Origin: an uncultured Opitutaceae bacterium
GTDB taxonomy: Bacteria > Verrucomicrobiota > Verrucomicrobiia > Opitutales > Opitutaceae
Direction: 5' to 3'
Length of the DNA stretch: 15,118 bases
Assembly: GCA_937128785.1 (NCBI GenBank)
Contig: CAKZMS010000297.1
Span: 1 to 15,118, forward strand
Of this stretch, positions 1,025-15,118 are shown piece by piece. Numbering within the stretch: the first letter of the stretch is position 1; every line of letters starts with the position of its first letter. The notes under the pieces were generated by a model, which worked only from the letters and a program-made list of their open reading frames with translations, ran no database searches and had not been told where the DNA came from. Made by a program: the position numbers and the translations under genes.

Positions 1025-1061
1025 GGCGAAAACGTTGGGCGACGACCGCGCGCTTGGCGAC

Positions 1062-1946
1062 TCAGTAGACGACTTTATTAAGCGGGTATTCCACGATGCC
1101 CTCCGCGCCCAAATCCTTGAGCTGCGGGATCATCTCACGGGCCACCTTTTCATCGATGATGATTTCCAAGGCCACCCACCCCGGCGTGTTCAATTTGGAA
1201 ATCGTGGGATTCCGCAACGCTGGCAATTTCTCCACCACGGTCTCGAGCGACGACTCTGCCAGGTTCATTTTCAAACCGACCTTGCTTTCGGCTTCGAGCG
1301 CGCCCTGCAACAGCATCGCAATGGTCTCGATCTTCTTTCGCTTTTCCGGGTTCGCCCAGCTTGCCTTGTTGGCGATCAGCTTGGTATTGGTTTCGAGCAG
1401 GGTGTCGATGATGCGCAGCTTGTTGGCCCGAATCGAATTCCCCGTCTCGGTAATATCAACGATCGCATCCACCAAGTCCGGCACCTTCACCTCGGTGGCT
1501 CCCCAGGAAAACTCGACCTTCGCTTCGACGCCTTTTTCCGCGAAATAACGCTGGGTCGAAGCCAACAACTCCGTCGCGACCCGCTTGCCCGCGAGATCTT
1601 CGGCTTTCTGCACCGGAGAGTCCTCCGGCACACACAGCACCCATTTCGATTTCAGAGTCGAAGCGCGGCTGTAGATCAAATCGCAGACTTCCACGACGTC
1701 GGACTCATTTTCGCGCACCCAGTCCCAGCCGGTCAGCCCGCAGTCAAAGAAACCGGACTCAACGTAGCGGCTGACCTCTTGGGCCCGCACAAAACGGCCG
1801 TCCAGTTCGGCGTCGTCGATCGAAGGTCGGTAAGACCGCGAGCGGGTGGAAATCTTCCAGCCGGCCTTGGCAAAAAGAGCTTTGGTGGATTCCTCCAAGC
1901 TGCCCTTGGGCAGCCCGAGCATAAGCAATGGTGTCGGTGCACTCAC
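1062..1946 (-). CDS. hisG: ATP phosphoribosyltransferase, long form
   Basis: HisG condenses ATP and PRPP to phosphoribosyl-ATP, the first and feedback-regulated step of histidine synthesis. The N-terminal part has the LGLPKGSLEE signature, followed by the DCGLTGWDWV segment. The PRPP-binding region has the family pattern near VDAIVDITETGNSIRAN. After this, the C-terminal 75 or so residues (ALRNPTISKL ... GWVALEIIIDEK ... LGAEGIVEYPLNKVVY) form the ACT-like regulatory domain that defines the long, HisZ-independent form. The start is uncertain. The frame is open to an ATG at 2018, but residues before the GTG at 1946 do not look conserved, and an ATG at 1922 is also possible. I prefer 1946, giving 294 residues, close to the usual length. 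No other his genes are nearby. It is probably the first gene of a two-gene unit with the amidase. Confidence 0.93.
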   Translation of the reverse strand: MSAPTPLLMLGLPKGSLEESTKALFAKAGWKISTRSRSYRPSIDDAELDGRFVRAQEVSRYVESGFFDCGLTGWDWVRENESDVVEVCDLIYSRASTLKSKWVLCVPEDSPVQKAEDLAGKRVATELLASTQRYFAEKGVEAKVEFSWGATEVKVPDLVDAIVDITETGNSIRANKLRIIDTLLETNTKLIANKASWANPEKRKKIETIAMLLQGALEAESKVGLKMNLAESSLETVVEKLPALRNPTISKLNTPGWVALEIIIDEKVAREMIPQLKDLGAEGIVEYPLNKVVY

Positions 1947-2011
1947 GCCTCGAACCGCACACGCCACCCCAGCGGCCTTCAAGCCCAATCTGTCTTGCCC
2001 CCCATCGAGTC

Positions 2012-2025
2012 GGCCCATTTGGGCC
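2012..2025. promoter_or_regulatory. GC-rich palindrome in the hisG upstream region
   Basis: GGCCCA (2012-2017) and TGGGCC (2020-2025) form a perfect inverted repeat with a two-base spacer. As RNA it can fold as a 5-bp G/C stem with a four-base loop. It sits just downstream of the predicted hisG promoter and within 12 to 25 bp of the response-regulator promoter, so it could be an operator or a leader hairpin. The most upstream possible hisG ATG (2018) would lie inside it, which argues for a start further downstream. Confidence 0.35.
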
Positions 2026-2036
2026 CAGTCTTTGCT

Positions 2037-2065
2037 TTGACAGGGAGGTCGAATTCAATTGTAAA
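2037..2065 (+). promoter_or_regulatory. Predicted sigma70-type promoter for the response regulator
   Basis: A perfect -35 box TTGACA (2037-2042) is followed after 17 bp by TGTAAA (2060-2065), which matches TATAAT at four of six positions. Transcription would start near 2072, about 40 bases before the ATG at 2111. This supports the short form of the regulator over the longer open frame that begins upstream at 1928. Confidence 0.45.
2037..2065 (-). promoter_or_regulatory. Possible divergent promoter for hisG, overlapping the plus-strand one
   Basis: On the minus strand the same two boxes read TTTACA (5 of 6 to the -35 consensus) and, 17 bp later, TGTCAA (3 of 6 to the -10 consensus). Each box would serve as -35 for one gene and -10 for the other. 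The -10 match is weak, and any TTGACA has some resemblance to a -10 on the other strand, so confidence is low. Confidence 0.25.
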
Positions 2066-2073
2066 AAACCGGA

Positions 2074-2093
2074 GGATGCCGTCGATAGCATCC
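2074..2093 (+). promoter_or_regulatory. Inverted repeat in the response-regulator leader
   Basis: GGATGC (2074-2079) and GCATCC (2088-2093) are perfect complementary arms with an 8-base loop, immediately after the predicted transcription start. The leader also contains a nine-codon frame including its stop (2076-2102, peptide MPSIASLP) that starts inside the left arm. The repeat could be an operator for autoregulation or an RNA hairpin; the sequence does not decide between them. Confidence 0.3.
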
Positions 2094-2110
2094 CTACCCT
2101 AATCATCCTG

Positions 2111-2866
2111 ATGTCGCGCCCTGAACCCAAACCGCTTATCCTCATCGTCGAGGATGAAGAGGAACTTGCCAAACTAATCTCCGTTCATCTCGAGGAAGCA
2201 GGCATGCAGGCGCAGATTTGCGGCCGAGCCTCCCACGCCGTGCGGTTCCTGAAACGCAACTTCGCGAACCTGATGCTGCTGGACATCAACCTGCCCGATC
2301 AATCCGGGTTTGCGCTACTGGAGGAACTGCGCCTCGCCGATGTTTCCATCCCCACGATCTTCCTGACCGGCAACGATCTCGAAACGGCCAAAGTCAAAGC
2401 TCTGGAAATCGGGGGCGACGACTACGTGACCAAGCCGTTCGGCTACGCCGAACTGGTCGCCCGCATCCGCGCTGTGCTCCGCCGGAGCGAGTCCCGCGAC
2501 GCCTACAAGGTCACCAAGAACGCCCGCGTGATCGACGAGCCCTTTGAGATTTGCGGTGGAAACGTGCATCCCGGTCGTCTCGAAATCCAGTTTGATGACA
2601 AAATTGAGAAGATCGGCCGCAAGGAGCTCGGCATCCTCTCCTATCTGCACGATCACGAAGGCATCGTCATAACGCGAAAGGCGCTCATTCATTCCGTCTG
2701 GGGCATCCACGCCGATGTGAAAAGCCGCTCGCTCGATCAATACATCGTGAAAGTGCGGGACTTGTTCAAACGGCACGGGCGATCGCTCGACGCGTTCCGC
2801 ACGGTGCACGGAGTCGGCTATATTTTCGATGCCAGCGGTCAGGCCTCGCCAGAGCCCGAAAGCTGA
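2111..2866 (+). CDS. OmpR/PhoB-type response regulator, orphan
   Basis: This 251-residue protein has a receiver domain (about 8-125) and a winged-helix DNA-binding domain (about 150-240). The receiver shows the acidic pocket Glu14-Asp15, the phospho-acceptor Asp58 (LMLLDINLPDQSG), Thr86 (IFLTGND) and Lys108 (YVTKPF), so it should be phosphorylatable. The C-terminal half has the OmpR-like pattern IGRKELGILSYLHDHEG, then a recognition region around KSRSLDQYIVKVRDLFKRHG and the wing segment FRTVHGVGYIF. It should be a cytosolic transcription factor. No histidine kinase lies on either side, so its partner is encoded elsewhere. The frame stays open to 1928, but the receiver begins just after the ATG at 2111 and a promoter-like sequence sits in between. 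Its stop is 3 bp from the convergent exonuclease stop. Confidence 0.9.
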   Translation: MSRPEPKPLILIVEDEEELAKLISVHLEEAGMQAQICGRASHAVRFLKRNFANLMLLDINLPDQSGFALLEELRLADVSIPTIFLTGNDLETAKVKALEIGGDDYVTKPFGYAELVARIRAVLRRSESRDAYKVTKNARVIDEPFEICGGNVHPGRLEIQFDDKIEKIGRKELGILSYLHDHEGIVITRKALIHSVWGIHADVKSRSLDQYIVKVRDLFKRHGRSLDAFRTVHGVGYIFDASGQASPEPES

Positions 2867-2869
2867 GCC

Positions 2870-3778
2870 TCAGAACAGCTCGCCTTGTTGGGCGCCGTAG
2901 CGTTTCTCAGCCTCGGTCGTGGCACCCTTCATTTCCAATTCGCGCAACTTGGCTACCAAGGCCGGGCCATCCACCGGAGGTTTGACGGAAGGCTGCACCG
3001 GCAGGTCGGGGTTGAAAGTCGTCAGCTGCAGGTTGACGCGCAGACGCTCGGCATCGGCGGCCAATTTCTCCCGAAAGCGATCGGGTTTGATTTCTGCCGC
3101 CGCCGCCAAAACACCCTCGAGGTCGCCGTAGGCATTTAACCACTTAGCCGCCGTCTTCGGGCCCACGCCCTGCACGCCCGGAATGTTGTCCGCCGTGTCG
3201 CCCACCAGCGCGAGGTAGTCGGCGATCTTGTCGGGAGTGACGCCAAACTTCGCTTCCACTCCAGCCTCATCCATGGTGCGCCAGCCCAGCCGCGGATTGG
3301 CCGTGGGCGGGGGCATGAGCATGGTGATGTTGCCGCCGACCGTTTGGGCGAAATCCTTGTCGGTGCTGACGATTTTCACGGTGTGACCTTCCTTCGCCAT
3401 GGCGACCGCCTGGGCGGCCAGCAGGTCGTCGCTCTCCACCCCGTCGATCTCGATTCCACCCAATCCCATCATCCGGGTGATTTCCTTGATGACCGGAATC
3501 TGCTGGCTGAGTGCATCCGGCATCTCCTCCCGATTGGCCTTATAGTCCGGCAGCAACTCGAGTCGGTCCTGCGCCCCCCCGAGATCAAAAAATACCAGAA
3601 TGCCGTCGGCCTTTTCCTGATCCTCCAGTTTCCAGATGGTCTTCACCCAGCCGTGCAAGGCGTTGGTGGGAAAGCCATCGGATCGGGTGAGCTCCGGGAT
3701 CGCAAAAAAGCAGCGGTAAGCGAGGTTGAACCCATCAATCAGTAACCAAGTCGACATGGCCGCAAAGTCAGCGGACAT
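2870..3778 (-). CDS. Stand-alone 5'-3' exonuclease (FEN-like, PolI N-terminal domain type)
   Basis: The 302 residues cover the 5' nuclease unit found at the N-terminus of DNA polymerase I, with no polymerase domain attached. Such enzymes cut flaps and 5' ends of branched DNA in replication and repair. Expected metal ligands are visible: Asp15 (LLIDGFN), Asp65 (FFDLG), Glu115 with Asp117 and Asp118 (GVESDDLLA), Asp140 and Asp142 (STDKDF), and Asp194 and Asp197 (VGDTADNIPG). The helix-3-turn-helix DNA-binding segment, IPGVQGVGPKTAAKWL, spans about 199-214. The C-terminus ends in GELF after a short basic tail. A second possible start, Met8 at 3757, directly precedes the conserved N-terminal strand and may be the true one. 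The gene is divergent from the ElyC-like gene. It resembles E. coli Xni in being free-standing, but I do not assign that symbol. Confidence 0.9.
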   Translation of the reverse strand: MSADFAAMSTWLLIDGFNLAYRCFFAIPELTRSDGFPTNALHGWVKTIWKLEDQEKADGILVFFDLGGAQDRLELLPDYKANREEMPDALSQQIPVIKEITRMMGLGGIEIDGVESDDLLAAQAVAMAKEGHTVKIVSTDKDFAQTVGGNITMLMPPPTANPRLGWRTMDEAGVEAKFGVTPDKIADYLALVGDTADNIPGVQGVGPKTAAKWLNAYGDLEGVLAAAAEIKPDRFREKLAADAERLRVNLQLTTFNPDLPVQPSVKPPVDGPALVAKLRELEMKGATTEAEKRYGAQQGELF

Positions 3779-3841
3779 GCTTCTGAGGGCTCAAACTCAA
3801 AACCACTTCCCACTCGACGATTGTCTCCTCAAGCTGCCGCA

Positions 3842-4597
3842 GTGTTTTGGCTGAAAAAATTGATTGGCGGACTCGCCGCACCCCTCCCCGTGGGCATGCT
3901 CCTCGTAGCAATCGGGGGTTACCTCGTCTGGAAAACCCAGCGACAAAAGCTCGGCCGGATCCTTCTCGCGATCGGTATCGGCATTCCGCTGTTGGCCAGC
4001 AATCGGGGATTTTCGGAGATATTGATCAGCCAGTTGGAGAACCAATATCCCCCTCAACACGCCACCACCGACATCCGCTACATCGCGATCCTGGGCGGAG
4101 GCCATGCCGACAATACCAACCTGCCGTGGACCACGCAGCTCTATGAGTCATCGCAGGCTCGTCTGGTCGAGGGAGTCCGCCTCCAACGCCAGAACCCCCG
4201 GTCCGTCCTGATCTGCCTCGGCCCGCAGGGGGATCGGTCTCACAGTCACGCGGAAGTGCTGGCCGGTGCCGCCCGGGAGCTCGGGGTGCATCCCATGAAT
4301 ATCGAAATTGAATCGGAGGTGCGCGACACCTTCGACGAGATCCAGACGATCAAACGCCTGGCCGGAAACGATTCGGTCGCGTTGGTGACCTCGGCGTGGC
4401 ACATGCCGCGAGCCATGGGCATTGCCCAGAAAACGGGCCTTAACGCCATCGCCGCTCCCACCGACTATCTTTCGCCGTTGGAGCACACTCCGGCCATCTA
4501 CTGGTTACAGTTCGGCGCCGAAGGACTCGGCCAATCATCCCGCGCCTGCCGGGAAGCCCTTGGTTTGATCTGGACCAAGCTGCGCGGTCAGCGGTGA
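3842..4597 (+). CDS. elyC: ElyC-like DUF218 (SanA/YdcF family) inner-membrane protein
   Basis: The 251 residues begin with two hydrophobic segments (about 12-29 and 38-52), followed by a DUF218 domain (about 78-215). This layout is that of E. coli ElyC, an envelope biogenesis factor linked to undecaprenyl-phosphate carrier use and peptidoglycan assembly. Similarities to ElyC as I remember it include the start FWLKKLIGG followed by PLP, the YIAILGGG motif (80-87), GVRLQRQNP, LVTSAWHMPRAM (181-192) and a C-terminal LGLIWTKLRG. The domain should face the periplasm. The frame is open from a TTG at 3821, but a GTG at 3842 places the conserved N-terminus right at the start, so I chose it; neither has a clear ribosome binding site. 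Family membership is secure; orthology to ElyC rather than another DUF218 member is likely but not proven. Confidence 0.82.
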   Translation: MFWLKKLIGGLAAPLPVGMLLVAIGGYLVWKTQRQKLGRILLAIGIGIPLLASNRGFSEILISQLENQYPPQHATTDIRYIAILGGGHADNTNLPWTTQLYESSQARLVEGVRLQRQNPRSVLICLGPQGDRSHSHAEVLAGAARELGVHPMNIEIESEVRDTFDEIQTIKRLAGNDSVALVTSAWHMPRAMGIAQKTGLNAIAAPTDYLSPLEHTPAIYWLQFGAEGLGQSSRACREALGLIWTKLRGQR

Positions 4598-4620
4598 GCA
4601 GGATTTCCTCCTGATCGCCG
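4592..4620 (+). terminator. Hairpin overlapping the elyC stop codon
   Basis: Bases 4592-4603 pair with 4609-4620 around a five-base TTTCC loop: 11 base pairs (one G-T) plus one G-A mismatch. The TGA stop (4595-4597) lies in the left arm. This is a plausible end for the elyC transcript, but no T-run follows, so it may only stabilise the mRNA 3' end. The rest of the gap up to 4684 shows nothing convincing. Confidence 0.4.
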
Positions 4621-4684
4621 ACGGTATGGCGGCAGCCGAGGGCGTTAACCTCGGTCATCCTCTCTGGCTGGTCCCAAGCCGGGA

Positions 4685-5662
4685 TTACGCAATGGGCAGG
4701 CCGTGGGCTGCCTTGAGTTTCGGTTGCTCCTTGATCAGTTCCAAGCCCCGCTGGGCGACGGCGATGAACTCGTCTTCATCCAGAGCCTCCAAGCGCGGGA
4801 ACGTCTCCAACAACTGCTCGAGATAAGCCATCTGGTTGATGCCGATCACCGCGGTGCTCAGACCCTTGAGACTCAGCGCGTAGCGCAGGGCGATCTCATA
4901 GTCCTCTGGCGGGAAACGAAACGTATAGGGACCACCGCCAAAGACCTTCATCGCCACCAGTCCAATGTTCTTATCCAAGGCGCGGGCCCACACCTTGTGT
5001 TCAAAATCATAGGTATGCTGGTTCACGTAGTTCACGGCATGCATGAACACGTCGATCTCACCTGAATCGATCGCGTAGTGAAACCGGCTGGGATGCACGT
5101 GCCCGCTGGCCCCGATGAAACGTACTTTACCTTGATCCCGCGCGTCTCGCAGGGCGCCCATCGCTCCGTCACTGCTGAAAGCCTTGTCCAAATCCGGCCA
5201 CCGCGAAGCCATGCCCAGGTTGTGCAGGTGCACAAGATCGACGTGATCGGTCTGCAGGTTGCGCAGACTTTGTTCGAGCAACTCCATCGTGCCGGCGTAG
5301 CTGGCGGATTCGGTCTTGGTGACCAAAAACACCTGATCGCGCTTGCCTTTCAGCGCGGGTCCGAGGCGGCGCTCTGATTCCCCCAGATTGTCCCCCGGAT
5401 AGTTGGGCGCGGTATCAACATAATTGATACCATGATCGATCGCCTTGGCGATGATCTCCACCACTTGGGCTCCGTTGACATTATCCCGCCCCAATTGGGC
5501 CGCCCCGATTCCGAGTTTCGAAACCTGCACGCCCGTGCGTCCCAAGGGCCCGTAGGGCATGGTATTGCCGGCAGCCGTCCAAGCCGTCGCGTGAGCATTT
5601 TTTAAGGCAAACAAACCACCGGCGGCCATTGCCGTGGTCTTCAGAAAATCTCTTCGTTCCAT
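4685..5662 (-). CDS. Aldo/keto reductase with twin-arginine signal
   Basis: The 325-residue protein starts with MERRDFLKTTAMAAGG, a good twin-arginine (Tat) signal with the RRDFLK core and a hydrophobic stretch to about residue 26. The mature part is an aldo/keto reductase barrel. Its catalytic set is visible: Asp83 and Tyr88 (YVDTAPNYPG), Lys116 (LVTKTES) and His147 (VDLVHLHNLG). These enzymes reduce carbonyl groups with NAD(P)H. Tat export suggests that the protein folds with bound cofactor in the cytosol before transport to the periplasm. The substrate cannot be read from sequence. It lies 100 bp downstream of the secretin gene on the same strand, with a hairpin between them, so it is probably not part of the pilus-like operon. 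Tat-tagged aldo/keto reductases occur in Verrucomicrobiota and Planctomycetota genomes, often without known roles. Confidence 0.88.
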   Translation of the reverse strand: MERRDFLKTTAMAAGGLFALKNAHATAWTAAGNTMPYGPLGRTGVQVSKLGIGAAQLGRDNVNGAQVVEIIAKAIDHGINYVDTAPNYPGDNLGESERRLGPALKGKRDQVFLVTKTESASYAGTMELLEQSLRNLQTDHVDLVHLHNLGMASRWPDLDKAFSSDGAMGALRDARDQGKVRFIGASGHVHPSRFHYAIDSGEIDVFMHAVNYVNQHTYDFEHKVWARALDKNIGLVAMKVFGGGPYTFRFPPEDYEIALRYALSLKGLSTAVIGINQMAYLEQLLETFPRLEALDEDEFIAVAQRGLELIKEQPKLKAAHGLPIA

Positions 5663-5736
5663 GGTAGTTGGGGGTTGCCGTCAGTCAGGACCGAAACCGC
5701 GGATAGAGCAAGCGTGCGTTGGAAGACAATACCCCG

Positions 5737-5754
5737 CCGGAAACACCCTTCCGG
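5737..5754 (-). terminator. Hairpin just after the secretin stop, possible operon terminator
   Basis: CCGGAA and TTCCGG form a perfect 6-bp stem with a six-base loop, starting 8 bases after the secretin stop codon in the minus direction. It separates the pilus-like operon from the aldo/keto reductase gene. There is no T-tract, so termination strength is uncertain. The rest of the 100-bp gap (5663-5762) shows only a weak promoter-like pair for the reductase. Confidence 0.4.
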
Positions 5755-5762
5755 GCAACAAA

Positions 5763-8396
5763 TCACTCCCGCTCGACGGCGCCGGCAGGCGTCACCACGG
5801 AGGGATTCTGGAAAGCGGAGCTCGGAGTCACCGAAGACAGCGCTTGCTTCTTGGGCGATCCACCGGGGCTGACCAAATTAGCGGTGACGAATATCAACAG
5901 ATTCCGTTTCTGCGTCGTCTCCCCTTCCGAGCGGAAGAGCCGGCCAAGGCCGGGGATATCGCCCAGCACCGGCACCTTGTCGTCCACCGTCTTGATCTCT
6001 TCGCGGGTCAGTCCGCCCATCACCAACGTGGCGCCGTCCCACAAGGTAACCTTGGTAGAGACTTCCCGGGTGGAGAAAATCGGTTGGTAGAAACCGGACG
6101 GCACGTTGACCGTGGTGTTGTTGGAGATGGCCACACTCTGGCCGCCGTATTCCACAAACCCTTCGAACTCGGTCACTCGCGGGTTCAGGTCCAGGCTGAT
6201 ACTGTAGTCGTCCTCCTCGACGGTCGGAGTCACCCGCAACTCCACGCCGACCTTGCGCATTTCAAAGTCCTGGGGCGTCCCGGCCGTAATCGTCACACCC
6301 GCCGAAGAGCTCTCCCGGGCGGAAGAGCCCACTTCGCTGCGCACTTCCCCGTAACTCGTGGGATAACGAAGCTCCTGTGCCACCGTGATGGTGGCGGGAT
6401 TGCCGGAGAGGACGGTGACTTTCGGCGCACTCAGGAGATCGGAACCGGTCTGGCGGGAAAGCGCGTTGACCACTGCGTTGACGTTAAAATCGCCGATCAT
6501 GCCCTGGATATTCGCCAACGGGTCCGCGCCCTCACCCAGATCCGCCGAACCGGGGAACTGCGGAGGATTGTTCGTGATGGGCACATCAGGAACCAAGGGT
6601 CGTGAAATGCGGCCGGGGGTCCCGGCGGAGTTGGTCGAGAACGCGTCGGAAAGCGTGCGGTTGGAAGTCCCGCCTTCGGCCAAATACGTCGGGTCGCCGC
6701 CGGTTCCATGCGTGACACTCCATTGGATCCCAAACTCCTCCAAGACGCCCTCCTGCACTTCCATGAACTTCGCTTCGATCTCGACCTGCCGCACGTCGTT
6801 GTAGCGGTTGAGGATGTTGCGAATGCGCTCAATGTTGCGCGAGGTCTGGGTCACGATCATCGCCGAACCGTCGTAAGCCAAATTGGCCCCAGGTTGGTTG
6901 GCGAAGTCCACTCCCGCCTGCTGCATGAACTGCTTGAGAGCTTCGGCTTCGCTGCCACCGCCGGGCGAACTCACAGCGGCGGCCGGGGCTGGCGAAAAAG
7001 GATCGTCGAACGCTGCCGATGTGCCCCCCGAAGCGAGACCACCGCCAATTCCCGTCATCCGAATCACGGTGGAACGCGTGATCGGAAAAAACTCGGTATC
7101 CAAAGTGGAGGTTTCTCCCCCCGGGCGCATCACCACGGCATCCGCCTGCACCTCGTATTGGTAGCCAATCGAATCGGTGATAAAATCGAGCACCCGCTTC
7201 AGGGACAGATCGCGCAGGGTGAGACTGACGGTAGGACGCCGGTCCTGTGGATCGATCACGATGATATTCACCCCAGGCATCCCCTGTTGATTGTCATCAA
7301 ACTCCCGAGACAAATCACTCAGGGTGCTCACCACGCGCTGCAATTCCACTGAGCTGAAACTCACACTCGGGATGCGGATGGATTCCAATTCCTGCATGAG
7401 GGGATTCGATCCTCCGGCGCCGAAGCCCGAGTCTTCCGCAGTCGCCACGGCGGCGCTGGGCCGTCGCCAGGATTGTTCGACTTCAGCAATGAGCGAGCGG
7501 CGCGTCTCCCGACGCCACAGCAGAGGGTCCGCTTCCATTTCCTCATCAATGCGTTCGGCCAGCCGGCGAGCCGCGTTGTGACTGGGATCAATGATCAGGA
7601 TCTCTTCCACCGATTCACGCGCCCGCTCCCAATAGCCAGAGGAGTAAGCCGCTCGGGCCTCCGACCAGAGTTGATCGATTTCGCTGGGAGGTTCATCCAC
7701 CGAGACCGACACCACCGGAGCCGATCGTTCCACCCGTGGTGGCGCAGTGACCTCATCGGCTGCCAAAGCCTGTTGGCGCATCCGATCGATTTCATTGCGT
7801 TGGGCCTTCAATTCGGCTGCGACCGGCGTGGTCAACGGATTCTCCGGCATCGAATATATCGCCGAGTCCAAACGGGAAAGTGCCGCGTCGTAGCGACCGG
7901 CTTCCGCCAGCCGGTCAGCCTCCATCGCCTCGCGCCGGGCATCCGTGATCAAGTCAAGTTGACGGGCCTCCTCTGCGGCCGCAGCGGCATCGATCTCCGC
8001 TTCCATCGCGGCCAATTCCGCCATGGGGTCGACCGCCGGTTCGCCTGGAGCGGCAAAAGGGTCATCAACCGGTGGGGAGACCTGCGCCGCCTTGGCCACG
8101 GTTTCCTCGTCCGGCAGGCTGGTGTCACCCGATTGATCGGCCATGTCCTCCTGCACACTCTTGAGCAGGCGCTGCACCGAGGGATCATCGGGAGCCATTT
8201 CAACCAGTTGCTGCAAATTGTGCTCCGCCAACGCGAGGTCGCCTTTGTCGCGGGCACGCAGGGCGTCGGCCATGAGACGGATTTTGGTTTCCGTGATACT
8301 CTGGCCTGAAGCTATCGGAACCGCCGACCCCACCCCCAGCACAAGGCCGAAGGCTACCAACGTGAGGCGCATATTCCGAGGGAAACGATTCATCAA
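5763..8396 (-). CDS. Secretin, PilQ/GspD superfamily (Amuc_1098-like pilus outer-membrane protein)
   Basis: This 877-residue protein should form the outer-membrane ring channel of a type IV pilus-like machine. A Sec signal covers about 1-31, ending near IASGQS. Residues 35-85 and 240-290 look like TPR helices, joined by an acidic, Ala-rich linker. A short N-domain follows (about 375-427: VNIIVIDPQDRRPTVSLTLRDLSLKRVLDFI), then a Gly/Pro-rich insert (about 449-482) and a second N-domain (about 483-560, with VEIEAKFMEVQEGVLEEFGIQW). The secretin core runs about 640-845 (LLSAPKVTVLSGNPATI; VGVELRVTPTVEEDD) and ends with the signature VPVLGDIPGLGRLF (808-821). There is no lipobox, and no peptidoglycan-binding AMIN domain is apparent. 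It is the last gene of the operon, 27 bp after the PilP-position gene. Secretin identity is certain; the Amuc_1098 family call rests on neighbours and architecture. Confidence 0.92.
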   Translation of the reverse strand: MMNRFPRNMRLTLVAFGLVLGVGSAVPIASGQSITETKIRLMADALRARDKGDLALAEHNLQQLVEMAPDDPSVQRLLKSVQEDMADQSGDTSLPDEETVAKAAQVSPPVDDPFAAPGEPAVDPMAELAAMEAEIDAAAAAEEARQLDLITDARREAMEADRLAEAGRYDAALSRLDSAIYSMPENPLTTPVAAELKAQRNEIDRMRQQALAADEVTAPPRVERSAPVVSVSVDEPPSEIDQLWSEARAAYSSGYWERARESVEEILIIDPSHNAARRLAERIDEEMEADPLLWRRETRRSLIAEVEQSWRRPSAAVATAEDSGFGAGGSNPLMQELESIRIPSVSFSSVELQRVVSTLSDLSREFDDNQQGMPGVNIIVIDPQDRRPTVSLTLRDLSLKRVLDFITDSIGYQYEVQADAVVMRPGGETSTLDTEFFPITRSTVIRMTGIGGGLASGGTSAAFDDPFSPAPAAAVSSPGGGSEAEALKQFMQQAGVDFANQPGANLAYDGSAMIVTQTSRNIERIRNILNRYNDVRQVEIEAKFMEVQEGVLEEFGIQWSVTHGTGGDPTYLAEGGTSNRTLSDAFSTNSAGTPGRISRPLVPDVPITNNPPQFPGSADLGEGADPLANIQGMIGDFNVNAVVNALSRQTGSDLLSAPKVTVLSGNPATITVAQELRYPTSYGEVRSEVGSSARESSSAGVTITAGTPQDFEMRKVGVELRVTPTVEEDDYSISLDLNPRVTEFEGFVEYGGQSVAISNNTTVNVPSGFYQPIFSTREVSTKVTLWDGATLVMGGLTREEIKTVDDKVPVLGDIPGLGRLFRSEGETTQKRNLLIFVTANLVSPGGSPKKQALSSVTPSSAFQNPSVVTPAGAVERE

Positions 8397-8423
8397 GAGG
8401 TATGGCGAAGCCTTTTAGCGGAT

Positions 8424-9299
8424 TTAAAATACGGTGTCGCTCTCAAATTGCACGTCCGGGCCACTATCCGGCACCAGCCGAATGGTCTCGCGCACGCCGG
8501 CGGGCATCGTCTTGACCGCCGTCAATGCATCGGGCCCGGTGAACACGCCGGTTATTTCGATGATCGCGTCGTCCAACTCGATCCGGTTGCCCGCTTCCAC
8601 CCGGCGCCGCTCGCCGGTGGATTCAATCAAGACCGTGGCTTTCGGTCGATCGGTCCAAGCCGGAAAACCCGACGTCAGTCGCACGGTGCGCTGCTCCCGC
8701 TGATCGTGGACCAAGGCCACGGCGACAATCTCCCGCAGCGGCATACTTTCCGGAACAATTAAATCCTCCCGCCTTATCTCCAACTTCCGGATCTCGAGGC
8801 CCAAATCAAGAAAACGGAAACCTTGCTGGGCGACTACCCCCTCCCCGCTGTCTTCATTGGCAAAAATCCCCCACGGATCATCCCACGCACCCGCGTAACC
8901 CACGAGTTGGAGCCGGTAAGGCTGGCGCTCCACTGCTAACAAGGAGATCCCAAACGGGGCCACCAGCGGTTCCTGATCCAGTTCCACCGCTTCCGGGGCC
9001 GAGACCGAAAACCGTCCGGTAGCCGGATCAAAAAAAATCCGGGGAGGCGTAAAAACATCGAAGGTCCACGCGGCGGGATCCGGCGACTCAGCGGGAACCG
9101 GCCAATCCACCTCCGGGAGCGGCCCGACCGGGATGCCCCCCGACTCCACGACTAAATCGGCCCCGGAGAGCGTCGGCACCTTTCCGAGATCGCTACGCGC
9201 CGACAGCGACGCCCACACGGCCCATCCCAGGGTCACCAAGAAAACCGCGCCGGCGGCACCCACCGCCATCAAGTCGGGAGATTCCTTGATCTTCACCAT
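8424..9299 (-). CDS. Membrane-anchored pilus-like protein in the PilP position (Amuc_1099-like)
   Basis: The 291 residues have a short cytosolic N-terminus, one membrane helix (about 11-31) and a long periplasmic part rich in beta strands. Two similar-looking modules follow a Pro-rich linker: about 115-182 (YRLQLVGYAGAWDDPWGIF ... VAQQGFRFLDLGLEIRKLE) and about 205-275 (ATVLIESTGERRRVEAGNRIELDDAIIEITGVF). Both recall the small beta domains of PilP and GspC that touch the secretin, but this is a reading by eye. Position supports it: the gene lies between the PilO-like and secretin genes, as pilP does in pilMNOPQ. Unlike classical PilP, it has no lipoprotein signal. Its ATG overlaps the previous gene by 7 bp, behind a strong ribosome binding site. 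The likely role is linking the inner-membrane complex to the secretin. Confidence 0.8.
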   Translation of the reverse strand: MVKIKESPDLMAVGAAGAVFLVTLGWAVWASLSARSDLGKVPTLSGADLVVESGGIPVGPLPEVDWPVPAESPDPAAWTFDVFTPPRIFFDPATGRFSVSAPEAVELDQEPLVAPFGISLLAVERQPYRLQLVGYAGAWDDPWGIFANEDSGEGVVAQQGFRFLDLGLEIRKLEIRREDLIVPESMPLREIVAVALVHDQREQRTVRLTSGFPAWTDRPKATVLIESTGERRRVEAGNRIELDDAIIEITGVFTGPDALTAVKTMPAGVRETIRLVPDSGPDVQFESDTVF

Positions 9300-10279
9300 A
9301 CCTCCTCCTCCGCGGCAGCCGCCGGCCGCGGGGTAAAATCCAAATACTCAAGCGTGACGTGAAACACCGACCGGTTTTCGTCGATCAACGGAACAATCGT
9401 GGTCTGCCCTTCCTCTGCCTCGGGCAAGGCGACGCTTTCATCGCGGAAGAGGTCGGCCAAGCTGCGGCGTCCACCGGCCGGTCGCCCCCCGTCGGTCAGC
9501 GGCTCGACTTCAATCTGGCGCACGACCAACGGCACAGGACTACGTTTCAGCTCACCGAGCCAAGCGCGCAGCGTGGCGGTATGTCCCACCCAGCTCAGCC
9601 GTAGCGCCAAGGCATCCATGATTCCAGCCCGGGAGAGACTCCGTCCGGACGGCCATTCCAACCACTCATCGGCCCGCGCTGCCCGCGCCGACGCCATGCC
9701 CCCGCTCTCGCTTAGGGCGAGTTTGAGCACCGGGTTCTCGCGTTTGACCAGCAGGAGTTCCTCCGGCTTCACCCGCCAAAGCGCCGCCAACGCAACCTGG
9801 ATTGCCTCCTTCTGTTGGTGAACCAACTCGAGATGCTCATCGGCGGGGCCGCTGTTACGATGAGCGGAAAATCCCAACGTCTCACCATCCGCCAGCGCCA
9901 CCCCAGCCTGCCGGGCTTGGGCAGCCTGATCTTCCATGAATTGCGCGAGCTCAAAAAAAGCATCGGCGCGCGCCGTGGGCACCGGTGCAGTCTGCACGGG
10001 ATCACGCGAAGACTCGCCCAGTTGCTTGCGCAACTCCTGTACCGAGCGGCGGGCGGTGTCGGTGCGCCGTTCCAACTCCGCCACGATCGCCGCCGTCGGG
10101 GCGGGGTCGCTCGCGGCCAGCGCCCGCCATTGCATCTGCTGCATCCGCCAACGTCGCTCCGCCTGGTCCGCGGCGGCCTTCTGTTGGAGGCTCCACCATA
10201 CCCCACCCGCGGTCAGTATGAGGAAACCAATCCCGCCGATTAATACCGGTCGGGAGAGCTCCCATTTGGCTGCCTTCAC
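9293..10279 (-). CDS. PilO-like single-pass pilus protein (Amuc_1100-like)
   Basis: The 328 residues comprise a short basic N-terminus, one membrane helix (about 12-29), a long helical coiled-coil region (about 33-135, rich in Gln, Arg and Glu) and a C-terminal alpha/beta part (about 150-315). This is the PilN/PilO layout, and length and position match the Akkermansia protein Amuc_1100 (about 317 residues), known for structure similar to type IV pilus assembly proteins and for immune signalling in the gut. A role as a periplasmic partner of the PilM-PilN fusion is inferred. It starts at a GTG (10277-10279) whose last two bases begin the TGA stop of the upstream gene, a 4-bp overlap that implies translational coupling. 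The C-terminus ends in an Ala-rich and Glu-rich tail. Sequence identity to Amuc_1100 itself could not be measured here and is probably low. Confidence 0.82.
   Translation of the reverse strand: MKAAKWELSRPVLIGGIGFLILTAGGVWWSLQQKAAADQAERRWRMQQMQWRALAASDPAPTAAIVAELERRTDTARRSVQELRKQLGESSRDPVQTAPVPTARADAFFELAQFMEDQAAQARQAGVALADGETLGFSAHRNSGPADEHLELVHQQKEAIQVALAALWRVKPEELLLVKRENPVLKLALSESGGMASARAARADEWLEWPSGRSLSRAGIMDALALRLSWVGHTATLRAWLGELKRSPVPLVVRQIEVEPLTDGGRPAGGRRSLADLFRDESVALPEAEEGQTTIVPLIDENRSVFHVTLEYLDFTPRPAAAAEEEVW
9301..9310 (-). promoter_or_regulatory. Strong ribosome binding site inside the upstream gene
   Basis: On the minus strand these bases read GAGGAGGAGG, one base before the ATG at 9299, so a GAGG or AGGAGG register with suitable spacing is available. 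The same bases encode the three-glutamate run at the end of the PilO-like protein. The site fixes the start of the downstream gene and suggests translational coupling. Confidence 0.65.
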
Positions 10280-11937
10280 AAGCCCGCCCTCGGGTTGATG
10301 ACCAACGTGAAATCGAAACGAAGCATGCCGGGTTCACTCGCATCGAATCGCTCGCCTTCGATGGCCGTAATCCGCGGGGACTCCACAAAGCGCGCCAACA
10401 ACGCGGTCGCCCGTTGATACGAATTTTGACTGACCCGGGTCAGCGGATTCTCCCGATCCAACAGGCGGCCGGAAATGCGCAAACGCAGCCGGTCTTCCGC
10501 CGCTTCAGCCATCGGCAAAGCCTGCAATCGCTCCAACCAAACATCTCCGGTCTGCCCCAGACTCGATTGCAGATCGGCCATCAAGCCTTCCCAAGCATGA
10601 CGACTCTGCAACTGCTCCTGCCAGACCCCGGCCTCATCCCGCAAATGAGCCAATTCGTCCAGATGGCTGGTAACCTGATTTTGCAGGACCTGCACCGGCA
10701 CCGTCTGCCGTCGCAGCTCCTCGGTCGACTCCATCCGCGCGGCCGCCAGCCGATTGAAATGGAGGCCGGGCAGAAACGTCGCCACCACCAGCAGGCTTGC
10801 CGCCATGATCCACCGGGGACGCTGCCGTTGCGCCGCCCGAGCCTCGCGCATCCTCGGCGGAGCCAGATCAAAGTGATACCCCCCTCGCTCAGATGCCGAA
10901 AAGTAAGCGCCAATCATATCGGCGATCCGGCCCGCTCCGACCCGACTCACTTCGCGGGCTGCGTCGTCCGTCACCACCAAGTCAGCTGGCAGGGACCACT
11001 CCGATGAAGGTTCGGATTCAGCCGCGCCGAAATTGAGCCCCGTCGGCAACCCCTGAACACCACCACCCGCCAAGCGAGTTTGGCGAGGCGGTGCGATGCC
11101 CGCGGGCCTCATTTGAGTGACCAGCGTGCGGCTGATTTCTTGCTTCAGCCGGGCCCCAAAACTTGCGGTTGCTTCCTTGACCGCTTCGCCGGCCCGGGTC
11201 TCTTCCGGCAGCGAAATCTTGCCACTGCCGATGCCCCGTTTCAGTTGCTCGGCTTCGGCGAAAGATTGGTCGAGTCGGTTTGCGATATCATGGGTCACGG
11301 AGTTGCCGGCCAGGGTCAGCGTGCGCAGGTGGACCCGCTCTCCGTCTTTAAAGAACAGATGCGTTGCCCGGGCTCCCACCGAAATGAGGGCGCTACTTCC
11401 CTCCGCTTGACCGACTAGCGACAACAGGGTGGGACCGGCGGCCATCACGGCCTTAACGGCCAACCCCACGGACGCGCAGACCTGCAGCAAACGATCGATG
11501 CCATCAGTCTTCGCCGCCACAATCATCACGTCCAACTCACCCTCATGGATACCCCGCTCCCGGTGCGCCCAGTATACCTGGTCCAGGTCAAAAGGAATGG
11601 CTTGGCGCACCTCGAATTCGATCAACTTGGGGCGCTGCTCCTCCGCCACGACCGGGACTTTAACCTGCTTGCAGAGGGCCAAGTGACCGGGGACGACCAG
11701 CACCACCTCACCCCGAATCCCTCGATCCGACTGGAGTTCGCCGAGTGCCCTTTCCATTCCGGCAAATGCAACGCTCTCCCCCCCCTCGTCCAGTGCCAGC
11801 TCAACATGGCGCAGATACTGTAATTCGCGGTGGTGATCCCGTTGGGTAAAAAGTCCGGCCGCTACGTGACTTGTTCCGATCTCGACCACCCATTGGCGGG
11901 CAGATTTTCGGCGGCGGCTGGACTTCGAGGATTTCAT
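10276..11937 (-). CDS. PilM-PilN fusion protein (Amuc_1101-like PilM family)
   Basis: The 553 residues join two proteins that are separate in most type IV pilus operons. Residues 15-350 are an FtsA/actin-like PilM domain: VVEIGTSHVAAG (17-28), the PilM pattern LIEFEVRQAIPFDLDQVYW (105-123), ISVGARATHLFF (185-196) and the adenosine-site motif LAGGGVQGLPTG (289-300). A basic linker (about 361-375) leads to one membrane helix (about 376-393), a coiled coil (about 396-445) and a ferredoxin-like C-terminal domain, as in PilN. PilM would thus be tethered to the membrane covalently, instead of binding the PilN N-terminal peptide. The acidic residue in phosphate motif 1 is Glu19 rather than Asp, and motif 2 has Ser186 where Asp is usual, so ATPase activity is doubtful. 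It lies 15 bp after the first gene of the operon and overlaps the next gene by 4 bp. Confidence 0.87.
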   Translation of the reverse strand: MKSSKSSRRRKSARQWVVEIGTSHVAAGLFTQRDHHRELQYLRHVELALDEGGESVAFAGMERALGELQSDRGIRGEVVLVVPGHLALCKQVKVPVVAEEQRPKLIEFEVRQAIPFDLDQVYWAHRERGIHEGELDVMIVAAKTDGIDRLLQVCASVGLAVKAVMAAGPTLLSLVGQAEGSSALISVGARATHLFFKDGERVHLRTLTLAGNSVTHDIANRLDQSFAEAEQLKRGIGSGKISLPEETRAGEAVKEATASFGARLKQEISRTLVTQMRPAGIAPPRQTRLAGGGVQGLPTGLNFGAAESEPSSEWSLPADLVVTDDAAREVSRVGAGRIADMIGAYFSASERGGYHFDLAPPRMREARAAQRQRPRWIMAASLLVVATFLPGLHFNRLAAARMESTEELRRQTVPVQVLQNQVTSHLDELAHLRDEAGVWQEQLQSRHAWEGLMADLQSSLGQTGDVWLERLQALPMAEAAEDRLRLRISGRLLDRENPLTRVSQNSYQRATALLARFVESPRITAIEGERFDASEPGMLRFDFTLVINPRAGL

Positions 11938-11952
11938 GACAGCCGATTCGGA

Positions 11953-12561
11953 CTAGCGCTCACTTGCGGTGGCAGCGGGCCGCATCACCACGGGATCGGG
12001 ATCACGGAAATCCGCCGCCCAGGGGGACAGATGGCGGGGCAACAACACCCCGTCGTTGACCGGGGAGAGCCGACTGTGCTGCTCGCGAAAATTAAGCACG
12101 GCGGATGCACTGGAAAACGCCGGCGCCACTTGCGTGGCAGTCGGTTCGACCTCACGGCCATCCACCGCCAAATCGCCGGCCCAAAACCGGGCTGCTCCGG
12201 TAATGCGATCGCGGCGCACAATTGCCGGCGGCAGATAAAATCGAAACACATGTCGTCCCGCCTCCAGGCTGGGCGCGACCACCGCCGCCCGATAAAACTC
12301 CAGCGGTCGTCCGTCCACCGGTCGCTGAAAGGCAAGGTCGAGCCCCACGCGCACCCGATTGGCGAATCGCCCCGCTCCGCCACCCTGAGCTTCGACGTTA
12401 AGTTCCACCGCCGCTTCCCACCATTCGGCTCCGCCTGGATCCCTCACCCGCTCAAAATCCACCTCCCGAACCGTCACCGCGGCTGATTGGGCTGCAAGAT
12501 GCCTTGCCCCGCCGGAAGCAAACGCGAGAAAGCCAAGCACTATTCTGAACCAAACAGTCAT
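11953..12561 (-). CDS. Small exported pilus-cluster protein (Amuc_1102-like)
   Basis: This is the first gene of the operon. The 202 residues begin with a Sec signal (about 1-25, ending HLAAQS). The rest is strongly beta-patterned (VTVREVDFERVRD, WWEAAVELNVEA, VRVGLDLAFQ, GRHVFRFYLPPAIVRRDRI), followed by a less regular C-terminal tail from about 140. Nothing shows a catalytic centre. Its place next to the PilM-PilN fusion matches Amuc_1102 in the Akkermansia cluster, a protein reported to have an immunoglobulin-like fold related to archaeal pilus proteins. A periplasmic or surface structural role is inferred. It has no membrane anchor beyond the signal, no lipobox and no type III prepilin cleavage motif, so it is not an ordinary type IV pilin. 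The family call depends mainly on gene order and general fold pattern. Confidence 0.75.
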   Translation of the reverse strand: MTVWFRIVLGFLAFASGGARHLAAQSAAVTVREVDFERVRDPGGAEWWEAAVELNVEAQGGGAGRFANRVRVGLDLAFQRPVDGRPLEFYRAAVVAPSLEAGRHVFRFYLPPAIVRRDRITGAARFWAGDLAVDGREVEPTATQVAPAFSSASAVLNFREQHSRLSPVNDGVLLPRHLSPWAADFRDPDPVVMRPAATASER

Positions 12562-12608
12562 GGAAGACCTGGAAATTCATTGAGCAGGACCCCGCCTCCG
12601 TCACGTTC

Positions 12609-12614
12609 ATTCTA
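12609..12614 (-). promoter_or_regulatory. Possible -10 box of the pilus-like operon promoter
   Basis: On the minus strand these bases read TAGAAT, five of six matches to TATAAT, placing a transcription start about 40 bases before the ATG at 12561. No good -35 box is found at the normal distance, so the call is weak. The 72-bp gap must also hold any promoter of the divergent Nudix gene, for which I see no convincing boxes. Confidence 0.25.
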
Positions 12615-12633
12615 CGATCTGAACCGCTAAATT

Positions 12634-13137
12634 ATGGCCGCTTCCTCTTCCCTAGACTACAAGATCGCCGTTCTGGTGTTCATGGAAAACGCCGCGGGTG
12701 AGCAACTGCTGCTACTCCGCGCCAAATCGCCCAATCTCGGGTGCTGGACGCCCATCGGGGGTAAACTGGAAACCGCCATCGGCGAATCCCCCTTCGAGTG
12801 CGCCGCCCGGGAAACCCGGGAGGAGACCGGTCACGCCATCGACCCGACCGATCTCCACCTCTTCGGCATGATCGCCGAAAAGGCCTACGAGGGAGAATCC
12901 CACTGGCTGCTCTTCCTGTTCCGCTGCACCCGTCCCATCGCGGCCCTCCCGCCGGCCATGGAGGAGGGCAGATTCGGGTTTTTCAGCCGATCTGCCATCG
13001 ATGAACTCGGCCTCCCCGCCACCGATCGCACGGCGCTTTGGCCCATTTTTGACCAGCATCGGAATGGGTTTGTCGCCCTGCGCGCGGACTGTGATCCGGG
13101 CAAAAAACTGGCCATCACGGTTGAACAGCAGCTTTGA
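12634..13137 (+). CDS. Nudix hydrolase
   Basis: The 167-residue protein is a single Nudix domain, a fold that hydrolyses nucleoside diphosphates linked to another group, such as oxidised dNTPs, sugar nucleotides or dinucleotides. The Nudix box runs about 43-66: GKLETAIGE, then SPFECAA, then RETREETGH. The catalytic REUxEE core is intact (Arg59, Glu60, Glu63, Glu64). The first loop between the Gly and the conserved Glu is two residues longer than the classical pattern. The first strand (YKIAVLVFM) and a WTPIGGKLE approach are typical of MutT-like enzymes. The substrate cannot be told from sequence. It is divergent from the pilus-like operon and 104 bp upstream of the pyruvate dehydrogenase genes, so it may share a transcript with them. 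No clear ribosome binding site precedes the ATG. Confidence 0.88.
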   Translation: MAASSSLDYKIAVLVFMENAAGEQLLLLRAKSPNLGCWTPIGGKLETAIGESPFECAARETREETGHAIDPTDLHLFGMIAEKAYEGESHWLLFLFRCTRPIAALPPAMEEGRFGFFSRSAIDELGLPATDRTALWPIFDQHRNGFVALRADCDPGKKLAITVEQQL

Positions 13138-13241
13138 GCGCGCTGGTTATAGATCAGGCAGGGTCGCTCTCGGACAATACACTTGCCACAAACAAGGGCC
13201 GCCGAACACTCGTCCTTTCCACTCTCAACTCACCCACTATC

Positions 13242-14303
13242 GTGAGCGAAACCAACACTTCCACATCCGCCTCCGCCGAGATCAACCAAAGCTTATCCTC
13301 CGAGGATAAGCTCGAACTCTACCGCCAGATGATGCGCATCCGCCGGTTCGAGGAGCGCAGCCTGCGCGCCTACCAAGCCAAGAAGATCGGCGGCTTCCTC
13401 CATCTTTACATCGGCCAAGAGGCCGTTGCCGTCGGTTGTTGCTCCCTCATGGGTGAGAACGACCACGTCATCACCGCCTACCGCGACCACGGTCACGCCA
13501 TCGCCGTCGGGATGGATACCAAGCCCCTCATGGCCGAGCTCTACGGCAAGGCCACCGGCTGTTCCAAAGGCAAAGGCGGCTCGATGCACTACTTCGACCC
13601 GTCCAACAACTTCTGGGGTGGTCACGGCATCGTCGGCGGCCAGATCCCCCTCGGCGTCGGACTCGCCTACGGAGTCAAATACAAGGGCCTGAAGGGCTCC
13701 GCCATGGCGTTCATGGGCGACGGCGCCGTGAACCAAGGCGCCGTGCACGAGGCGATGAACCTCGCCGCTCTCTGGGACCTGCCCTGCATTTTCGTGATCG
13801 AAAACAACCGCTATTCGATGGGCACATCCCAGATCCGCTCCTCCGCCGGTCCGGGTCTCGCCGAGCGCGCCGCGGGTTACGGCATGCACTGGGAAAAGTG
13901 CTTTGGTCATAACGTCTACGAAGTTCGGGAGACCATGGACAAGGTGCTCAAGCTCGCTCGTGAGGAGAACAAACCCTCCGTCGTCGAAATCGACACCTAC
14001 CGCTATCGCGGCCATTCCGTGGCTGATCCGGATAAAACCTACCGCACCCGCGAGGAAATTGACGAGAAGCGGAAGAACCGCGACCCCCTCATCATCTTCC
14101 AAACCCAGCTGACCGAAGAAGGCGTGCTGTCCGAGGAATCCCAAAAGCAAATCGACAAAGCCGCCCGGGCCGAAGCGGAAGAAGCGGCAAAATTCGCCGA
14201 AGAAAGCCCCTTCCCCACCGAGGCAGATATCCAAAAGGATGTTTACTGGGAAGCCGACCATCCCGAACAACGGACCTCCCAAGGCCGACTCTTTTTCAGC
14301 TAA
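13242..14303 (+). CDS. pdhA: Pyruvate dehydrogenase E1 component, alpha subunit
   Basis: Together with E1 beta this subunit decarboxylates pyruvate using thiamine diphosphate and passes the acetyl group to E2. Numbered from the GTG at 13242 (353 residues), the family features are LYRQMMRIRRFEERS (26-40), HLYIGQEAVAVG (54-65), the YRDHGH segment (80-85), GKGGSMHYF (111-119), GGHGIVGGQIPLGVG (126-140), and the thiamine-diphosphate motif from MGDGAVNQGAVHEAMN to IENN (158-189), then the YRYRGHSVADPD loop (253-264). These fit PDH rather than branched-chain E1. The frame stays open to a TTG at 13134, overlapping the Nudix stop, but the extra 36 residues are unlike the family. The first 20 or so residues are a Ser/Thr-rich tail with a perfect palindrome in their coding DNA at its end. 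It lies 18 bp before E1 beta. Confidence 0.93.
   Translation: MSETNTSTSASAEINQSLSSEDKLELYRQMMRIRRFEERSLRAYQAKKIGGFLHLYIGQEAVAVGCCSLMGENDHVITAYRDHGHAIAVGMDTKPLMAELYGKATGCSKGKGGSMHYFDPSNNFWGGHGIVGGQIPLGVGLAYGVKYKGLKGSAMAFMGDGAVNQGAVHEAMNLAALWDLPCIFVIENNRYSMGTSQIRSSAGPGLAERAAGYGMHWEKCFGHNVYEVRETMDKVLKLAREENKPSVVEIDTYRYRGHSVADPDKTYRTREEIDEKRKNRDPLIIFQTQLTEEGVLSEESQKQIDKAARAEAEEAAKFAEESPFPTEADIQKDVYWEADHPEQRTSQGRLFFS
13290..13312. repeat. Perfect 23-bp palindrome inside the start of pdhA
   Basis: Arms AGCTTATCCTC (13290-13300) and GAGGATAAGCT (13302-13312) are exact reverse complements around a single central C. It begins 48 bp after the proposed GTG start and encodes SLSSEDKL. As RNA it can fold into a 9-bp stem with a five-base loop. 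It could be an operator, an mRNA hairpin or chance. Confidence 0.7.
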
Positions 14304-14321
14304 CTCTTTATTTCGCGAACC

Positions 14322-15118
14322 ATGTCTGAACTCACTTACCGCGAAGCTGTCCGCGCCGCCCTCTCCGAGGAAATTGAACGGGACGAGAACGTCGTCCTCA
14401 TGGGCGAGGAAGTCGCCCAATTCAACGGTGCCTACAAAGTCTCCGAGGGCCTCCTCGATAAATTCGGTCCCGACCGCATCGTCGATACCCCGATCTCCGA
14501 AGCCGGTTTCATCGGCATGGGCATCGGTTCATCGATGCTCGGCGTGCGCCCCGTCATGGAACTCATGTTCTGGTCGTTCTACTCGGTGGCCTTCGACCAG
14601 ATCCTGAACAACGCCGCCAACGTGCGCTACATGTCCGGTGGCCAGATCCACTGCCCCATCGTGATCCGGGGCCCCGCCAACGGCGGCACCAACGTCGGCG
14701 CAACCCATTCCCATACTCCCGAGAACGTCTTGGCCAACCACCCCGGCGTGAAGGTGGTGGTTCCCGCGACGGCCGCCGATGCGAAGGGCCTGATGAAGAG
14801 CTCCATCCGCGACAACGATCCCGTCTTCTTCCTCGAGAACACCATTCTCTACGGCGAAAAGGGCGAAGTGCCGGATGATGAGGATTTTCTCATCCCCCTG
14901 GGCTCCGCCGACGTGAAGCGCGAAGGTGCCGACCTCACGATTGTGACCTACGGTCGTTGCGTCCTGCACTCTCTCGCGGCCGCCGAAACGATTGCCAAGG
15001 AAGATGGAGCCGAGGTCGAAGTGGTCGATCTGCGCACCATCCGTCCGCGCGACGTCGACACCGTGATCAAATCGGTAACCAAGACCAACCGGGTTCTCAT
15101 CGTTGAAGAGCAAAAGCC
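14322..15118 (+). CDS. pdhB: Pyruvate dehydrogenase E1 component, beta subunit, 3' end missing
   Basis: An ATG at 14322 opens a frame that is still open at the window edge, giving 265 codons; about 60 more are expected. The product starts MSELTYREAVRAALSEE and has the E1 beta pattern: VVLMGEEVAQFNGAYKVSEGL (24-44), the thiamine-site Glu60 in TPISEAGFIGMGIG, FDQILNNAANVRYMSGG, PIVIRGPANGG, THSHTPENVLANHPGVKVVVPATAADAKGLM, and the C-terminal domain segment DLRTIRPRDVDTV. With E1 alpha it should make the alpha2-beta2 tetramer of the pyruvate dehydrogenase complex. There is no lipoyl domain at the N-terminus, as is sometimes seen in other bacteria. The E2 gene is expected downstream, beyond the window. 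Confidence 0.93.
   Translation, partial: MSELTYREAVRAALSEEIERDENVVLMGEEVAQFNGAYKVSEGLLDKFGPDRIVDTPISEAGFIGMGIGSSMLGVRPVMELMFWSFYSVAFDQILNNAANVRYMSGGQIHCPIVIRGPANGGTNVGATHSHTPENVLANHPGVKVVVPATAADAKGLMKSSIRDNDPVFFLENTILYGEKGEVPDDEDFLIPLGSADVKREGADLTIVTYGRCVLHSLAAAETIAKEDGAEVEVVDLRTIRPRDVDTVIKSVTKTNRVLIVEEQK

Follow-up and report, generated by a model that had tools for sequence, protein, structure and literature searches.

Which envelope machine is built from an operon that encodes a secretin and its presumed inner-membrane partners, with no motor gene found beside it? This question is raised by a five-gene operon of an uncultured Opitutaceae bacterium, carried on a stretch of 15,118 nucleotides (contig C297; GenBank CAKZMS010000297.1, positions 1 to 15,118) that is referred to here as the window. 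The assembly comprises 3.64 Mb in 774 contigs and is 82% complete. From the gene content and order, the homologies and a predicted domain of the products, and the genomic linkage in relatives, we infer that genes 1–5 (Table 1) probably encode the envelope-spanning alignment complex of a retractile type IVa pilus, with its motor encoded elsewhere.

In the proposed machine, gene 2 would provide a cytoplasmic, actin-like PilM covalently joined to PilN (a membrane helix plus a periplasmic domain), gene 3 the PilO that pairs with it, and gene 5 the outer-membrane secretin. Gene 4 would take the place of PilP, as a connector that carries an HR domain and is held in the membrane, like GspC, by a helix. 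Gene 1 would be an accessory exported beta protein, lost in some lineages. These products would assemble into one physical complex, and their motor partners would be PilB, PilT, a second PilB and PilC, with genes at another place in the genome, behind coaE-rho. By extending and retracting through the secretin, the pilus would attach to polymers or surfaces and gather them.

The operon shares its gene order with Amuc_1102 to Amuc_1098

The five genes lie on one strand; from gene 1 to gene 5, the successive junctions are a gap of 15 bp, overlaps of 4 bp and then 7 bp, and a gap of 27 bp, with coordinates and spacings as given in a preliminary description made from the sequence alone. That description had also matched the gene order to Amuc_1102 down to Amuc_1098 of Akkermansia muciniphila; the order is the same, and homology was found using NCBIfam models, iterated profiles and hhalign. 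Four of the five proteins, including three of the four non-secretin ones, matched named NCBIfam models below their cut-offs, i.e., gene 5 with Amuc_1098_fam (E = 3.4e-115, 385.9 bits, cut-off 750), gene 2 with Amuc_1101_fam (4.6e-54, 184.3 bits, cut-off 650), gene 3 with Amuc_1100_fam (1.6e-16, 60.6 bits, cut-off 180) and gene 1 with Amuc_1102_rel (7.6e-4, 19.1 bits, cut-off 55). Because all four scores fall below the curated cut-offs, the window genes are, as judged by sequence, a homologous branch and not members of the NCBIfam Amuc_1098, Amuc_1100, Amuc_1101 and Amuc_1102 equivalog families. Gene 4 had no Pfam or NCBIfam family match at E ≤ 1 and was tied to the Amuc_1099 slot via an iterated profile search, which linked the 1101, 1100 and 1099 slots across 42 loci (some sharing a genome), Akkermansia included.

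For gene 3, a profile of relatives without Akkermansia (A7) matched the solved Amuc_1100 at 4e-7. The profile built from 21 relatives of gene 1 aligned with a 12-sequence profile of other groups (Akkermansia included) at an hhalign probability of 97.5 and E = 7.5e-12; the solved Amuc_1102 was not reached at E ≤ 1 by the gene 1 profile without Akkermansia (A8), and on these sequence comparisons gene 1 is the weakest homology link to an Akkermansia counterpart. Strong matches to the solved Amuc_1100 and Amuc_1102 by two other profiles (A5 and A6) were set aside, both profiles containing Akkermansia sequences. Locus L055 (genome G021) was identified as Akkermansia by its close match to the solved Amuc_1100.

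The four core genes, those of the 1101, 1100, 1099 and 1098 slots, lie on a single strand and in the same order in 95/95 loci with all four detected (the window included; 93 have distinct secretin C-termini). Because strand and order are constant in all of these loci, the arrangement is not due to chance. The genes are separate in 91 loci, and 1100 and 1099 share one reading frame in 4. The latter (L051, L100, L107 and L111) would be PilO-PilP-type fusions. Of 97 eligible loci, 74 have gene 1 immediately upstream of 1101, the E-values of this neighbour search coming from a small, position-filtered set.

Individual proteins resemble PilM, PilN, PilP and a secretin

The preliminary description had mapped the operon onto pilM+N, O, P and Q. 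This mapping held for PilM and PilN by sequence comparison with solved structures, for the PilP role by the predicted fold of gene 4, and for the secretin; for gene 3, PilO is a putative assignment whose sole basis is kinship with Amuc_1100. A profile search of gene 2 against the PDB returned PilM at 9.3e-62 and PilN at 2e-7, the latter being Myxococcus PilN matched at positions 352–481, and the model of this part shows a long helix followed by beta-beta-alpha-beta-beta. PilM was favoured over GspL by both Pfam (PilM_2 52 bits vs T2SSL 24.7) and NCBIfam (pilM 50.4 bits vs gspL 23.7). These results support the assignment of gene 2 as a predicted PilM-PilN fusion.

The predicted fold of gene 4 includes a GspC/PilP HR domain at about residues 127–212, in a layout that runs from an N-terminal membrane helix through a poorly predicted stretch to the HR domain and a second beta domain. 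The second beta domain (about 215–278) had no convincing match in the fold comparison, and gene 4 gave no match by Foldseek alone or by sequence profile against the PDB. Among 103 relatives of gene 4, a membrane-helix-like stretch occurs within the first 60 residues in 99, and a lipobox-like pattern in 7, where we read it as falling inside the membrane-helix-like stretch. The HR domain suggests a likely role for the Amuc_1099 slot, which was previously without a family match.

Gene 5 matched the Pfam Secretin family (PF00263) at 1.3e-36, and its matches to TPR and STN models stayed below the respective cut-offs. Two or three tandem Amuc_1098-type secretin genes were observed in seven loci (L057, L138, L141, L143, L149, L152 and L196).

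Gene 1 was not found in four genomes (G018, G099, G122 and G060) that otherwise retain the core operon, and in G172 it sits away from the operon. Because it is missing or displaced in these genomes, gene 1 is more probably an accessory than a core component, and is unlikely to be the essential pilin. An apparent tandem duplication of gene 1 in many relatives was rejected, the extra matches being antisense frames of a divergent NUDIX gene and thus an artefact of the six-frame search.

A candidate motor lies behind coaE-rho

No pilin, motor ATPase, platform protein or prepilin peptidase was detected among the other window genes put to family models, in agreement with the preliminary description. 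In relatives from the window's order, coaE-rho is followed by PilB (hereafter, PilB1), PilT (in most), a second PilB and PilC. Among 18 loci meeting set criteria, rho directly precedes PilB in 12/12 inside the order and 0/6 outside it. Outside the order, coaE-rho follows 1098 in 16 of 22 examined loci holding both 1101 and 1098 (the others being L057, L191, L193, L196, L209 and L217). Operon and motor joined through coaE-rho in a single stretch were looked for in L198–L204, where the sequence read downstream of rho contained no PilB. The two lie side by side in other loci: the four core genes adjoin PilB-PilT-PilB-PilC in L136 and L147, and so does a secretin at the contig start in L153. These three loci are probably one lineage, because their secretins share 45–47% mutual identity (vs 33–38% to two others compared) and their PilB1 proteins 76–79%.

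In the window's own genome, contig C570 carries rho, PilB and the start of PilT, and ends inside pilT. Its PilB1 scored 817 bits, and the matches listed fall into classes of at least 817 and at most 654 bits. Further PilT matches are located on contig C441, one PF01478 match to prepilin peptidase is over the cut-off but partial, and 10 N_methyl matches at E ≤ 0.01 represent prepilin-like proteins. The genome search for pilus parts yielded PilB, PilT, a prepilin peptidase and prepilin-like proteins, but not the cognate PilC, which adjoins the second PilB in relatives G091 and G271.

Operon and motor co-occur in the window's family, yet each can occur without the other

The distribution of the Amuc_1098-type secretin and this PilC was profiled in 177 genomes of the order, using presence cut-offs set by eye from gaps in the match lists (secretin 1e-80 or better, PilC 1e-116 or better). 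In the window's family (f1), nine genomes hold both, two the secretin only and four neither. The secretin-only pair consists of the window's own fragmented assembly, in which PilB1 is present, and G060. The strong PilM_2 match is gene 2 in 9/9 examined family genomes with the operon (G122 adds a weak one, 6.9e-4, elsewhere), and no PilM_2 match at E ≤ 0.01 was found in the 5/5 without it. Four operon-less genomes (G010, G080, G088 and G143) have no PilB1-class match among the matches listed. In a further operon-less genome (G283; contig C65, L059 7227-15755), PilT is whole, and the genes for PilB1, the second PilB and PilC are each split across several frames.

Akkermansia offers an argument by elimination. 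Genomes G021 and G024 each hold two secretins, one platform protein, one strong PilM match and one prepilin peptidase, and the second secretin of G021 is nearer the Amuc_1098 type (matched at 168.5 bits by the window secretin and at 95.7 by the secretin on own contig C308). Provided that Akkermansia has a type IVa pilus, the alignment complex of that pilus has one strong candidate only, this operon. In Akkermansia, a second Amuc_1098-type secretin with TPRs lies away from the operon (L076 9343-11865).

Several findings weigh against the pairing of this operon with a type IVa motor. Across the 177 genomes, 94 have both secretin and PilC, 56 secretin only, 12 PilC only and 15 neither, so the order-wide association is weak (Fisher p = 0.09); a clean co-occurrence among the first 20 genomes was not kept in the larger sample. 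After dropping seven small-genome families (f66, f67, f72 and f80–f83, chosen after the data were seen), the counts are 94/17/12/12 with p = 5.5e-4, uncorrected for phylogeny. Some of the PilC-only genomes may be false absences of the secretin, e.g., G330, scored as lacking the secretin, has a PilM_2 match of 53.8 bits, and the operon is present in G370, which belongs to the same genus. The motor occurs without an Amuc_1098-type secretin in G108 (99% complete), and G060 (100% complete), G295 and G296 keep the core operon with no PilB1 among the matches listed and no cognate PilC. The cognate PilC was likewise not found in the window's own incomplete, fragmented assembly, where the best match (4.8e-111) is of the other T2SSF class. 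Contig C308 (L069) carries a second secretin that is closer to PilQ (245.8 bits vs 129.5 for gene 5), behind a weak PilO match (Pfam 3.8e-4, just below cut-off) and a 171-aa protein; this cluster is probably another pilus system. Lastly, gene 4 has no lipobox pattern, where a PilP-type anchor would be expected, and scores at least equally well against GspC.

Reduced forms of the operon were observed as well. In family f4, four loci (L159, L160, L162 and L163) have a slimmed operon with a 409–437 aa gene at the 1101 position, a 553–682 aa secretin and, where visible, short genes at the 1100 and 1099 positions. In L159 the four genes encode 433, 224, 230 and 682 aa, and the first matches a GspL model (9.4e-5) and not the 1101 profile, which within the family is matched, weakly, only by L162 and L158. 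Six small-genome loci (L169–L174) have an Amuc_1098-type secretin with no partner detected by the 1099–1101 profiles even at E ≤ 0.5.

Alternative explanations

A broader possibility is that the alignment complex is separable from the pilus, persisting without its PilB/PilC motor in several lineages of the order, being slimmed, and finally leaving a secretin with no recognisable partner. The Amuc_1098–1102 complex would then be a trans-envelope conduit with its own function and the pilus one of its uses, a proposal that we regard as doubtful.

An exporter resembling the type II secretion system (T2SS) is unlikely. In it, genes 2, 3, 4 and 5 would act as GspL, GspM, GspC and GspD and release proteins without a filament. 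The scores of gene 2 for PilM over GspL and its PilN match argue against this exporter, as does the presence of PilT in most loci of the linked motor, since T2SS is not known to include PilT. In addition, relative G091 has a separate secretin-ATPase-platform cluster.

It seems more unlikely still that the operon builds a conduit or surface structure that works independently of a motor, e.g., for glycan capture. The retention of the core operon in G060, G295 and G296 and the secretins of L169–L174 with no detected partner are in line with such a structure, but absence of the operon in the window's family coincides with an absent or broken motor, and L136, L147 and L153 place the operon or its secretin end beside the motor. 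Moreover, other proteins of GspE/PilB-like and PilC-like type are encoded in the genomes that seem to be without a motor, and a weak PilC match (129 bits) lies near the L169 secretin.

It is very improbable that the motor belongs to the C308 secretin and the window operon serves another system: the PilQ-like score of that secretin and the weak PilO match beside it would fit, but PF00263 matches of the same size and score class (equated across genomes by these measures, not by a tree) persist in G010, G088, G143 and G283, all without an intact PilB1/PilC motor, and Akkermansia G021 is without a C308-class secretin, yet has the motor.

Distribution and previous descriptions

The window's genus includes G091 and G271, whose lineages we take not to be gut organisms. 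An Amuc_1100 match at E ≤ 0.001 was found in 223 of 288 Verrucomicrobiota genomes (29 of the 223 over the cut-off) and in 1 of 14 control genomes (Bacillus subtilis, below the cut-off). None was found in the six genomes listed from family f8, which we infer to be Methylacidiphilaceae.

The synteny of Amuc_1099–1102 (the MUL2 locus) has been reported as conserved in aquatic Akkermansiaceae, and the locus as frequent in other Verrucomicrobiales families, less conserved in Chthoniobacterales and absent from Methylacidiphilales, with a predicted role as a pilus-biogenesis complex for attachment; coaE and rho appear as its neighbour genes in a figure legend (PMC13174399). The suggestion in the preliminary description of a function older than gut life is right, but not new, having been published for Akkermansiaceae and Verrucomicrobiales (PMC13174399). 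The operon and its age are thus already published, and the present analysis adds the assignment of a PilM-PilN fusion and of an HR domain, together with a candidate motor; no description of the operon in Opitutales, or of its pairing with the motor, was found in the literature searched, which was covered in part.

Amuc_1100 has been investigated for its role in host signalling and described as a pili-like protein of the outer membrane (PMC5332112). Should the whole set be the phylum's type IVa alignment complex, Amuc_1100 would be a part of PilO type anchored in the inner membrane, not a filament subunit, which would bear on how it could reach host cells.

Genomic context of the operon in the window

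The divergent NUDIX gene upstream of the operon is present in 45 of 91 loci having at least 2 kb upstream of 1101, and absent from the examined loci of genomes outside the window's order. It is probably a conserved neighbour, not part of the machine. By family models, the other window genes include those for a CN-hydrolase, HisG, a response regulator, a 5'-3' exonuclease, a DUF218 protein, an aldo-keto reductase, the NUDIX hydrolase and dehydrogenase E1 alpha and beta. A plasmid search with the window gave no match, and Rfam and tRNA scans of it returned nothing. Promoter-like sites numbered 2 (vs 1.3 in shuffles) and terminator-like sites 12 (vs 6.3, sd 2.6).

Table 1 Operon genes and two neighbouring features of the window.
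Feature	Coordinates	Strand	Product length and start	Annotation
Gene 1	11953..12561	-	202 aa	Amuc_1102-like putative exported beta protein
Gene 2	10276..11937	-	553 aa	Predicted PilM-PilN fusion, Amuc_1101-like
Gene 3	9293..10279	-	328 aa, GTG start	Amuc_1100-like, PilO slot
Gene 4	8424..9299	-	291 aa	Amuc_1099 slot
Gene 5	5763..8396	-	877 aa, TTG start, ATG one codon later	Amuc_1098-like secretin, TPR-like N-terminal region
NUDIX hydrolase, divergent from operon	12634..13137	+		Pfam NUDIX 2.1e-16
DUF218 protein	3821-4597			Related to envelope factor ElyC (match E 1.4e-49, below cut-off)

Comparison with known machines

Overall, the interpretation in the preliminary description is supported, and the operon can be compared with three known systems. 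The Amuc_1098–1102 cluster of A. muciniphila has the same five genes in the same order, from which the window genes differ in falling below all equivalog cut-offs. Gene 5 shares 29% identity with the secretin of Akkermansia L055 (alignment A1), and coaE-rho lies downstream of 1098 in Akkermansia, whereas in the window's order it lies upstream of the motor cluster.

With the GspL-GspM-GspC-GspD set of type II secretion, where GspL is a fused actin-like plus periplasmic protein, the operon shares such a fusion, a membrane-anchored HR-domain protein and a secretin. It differs in the sequence of gene 2, which favours PilM over GspL, and in a linked motor with PilT in most loci.

With type IVa PilMNOPQ (Myxococcus, Thermus and Pseudomonas), it shares PilM and PilN sequence, the predicted HR domain of PilP, a secretin and the M-N-O-P-Q gene order that is usual for the pilus alignment complex. 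Here the differences are that PilM and PilN are fused, that gene 4 is anchored by a membrane helix while PilP is typically a lipoprotein (a trait we do not take as defining), that the secretin bears a TPR-like N-terminal region, and that the motor lies outside the operon.

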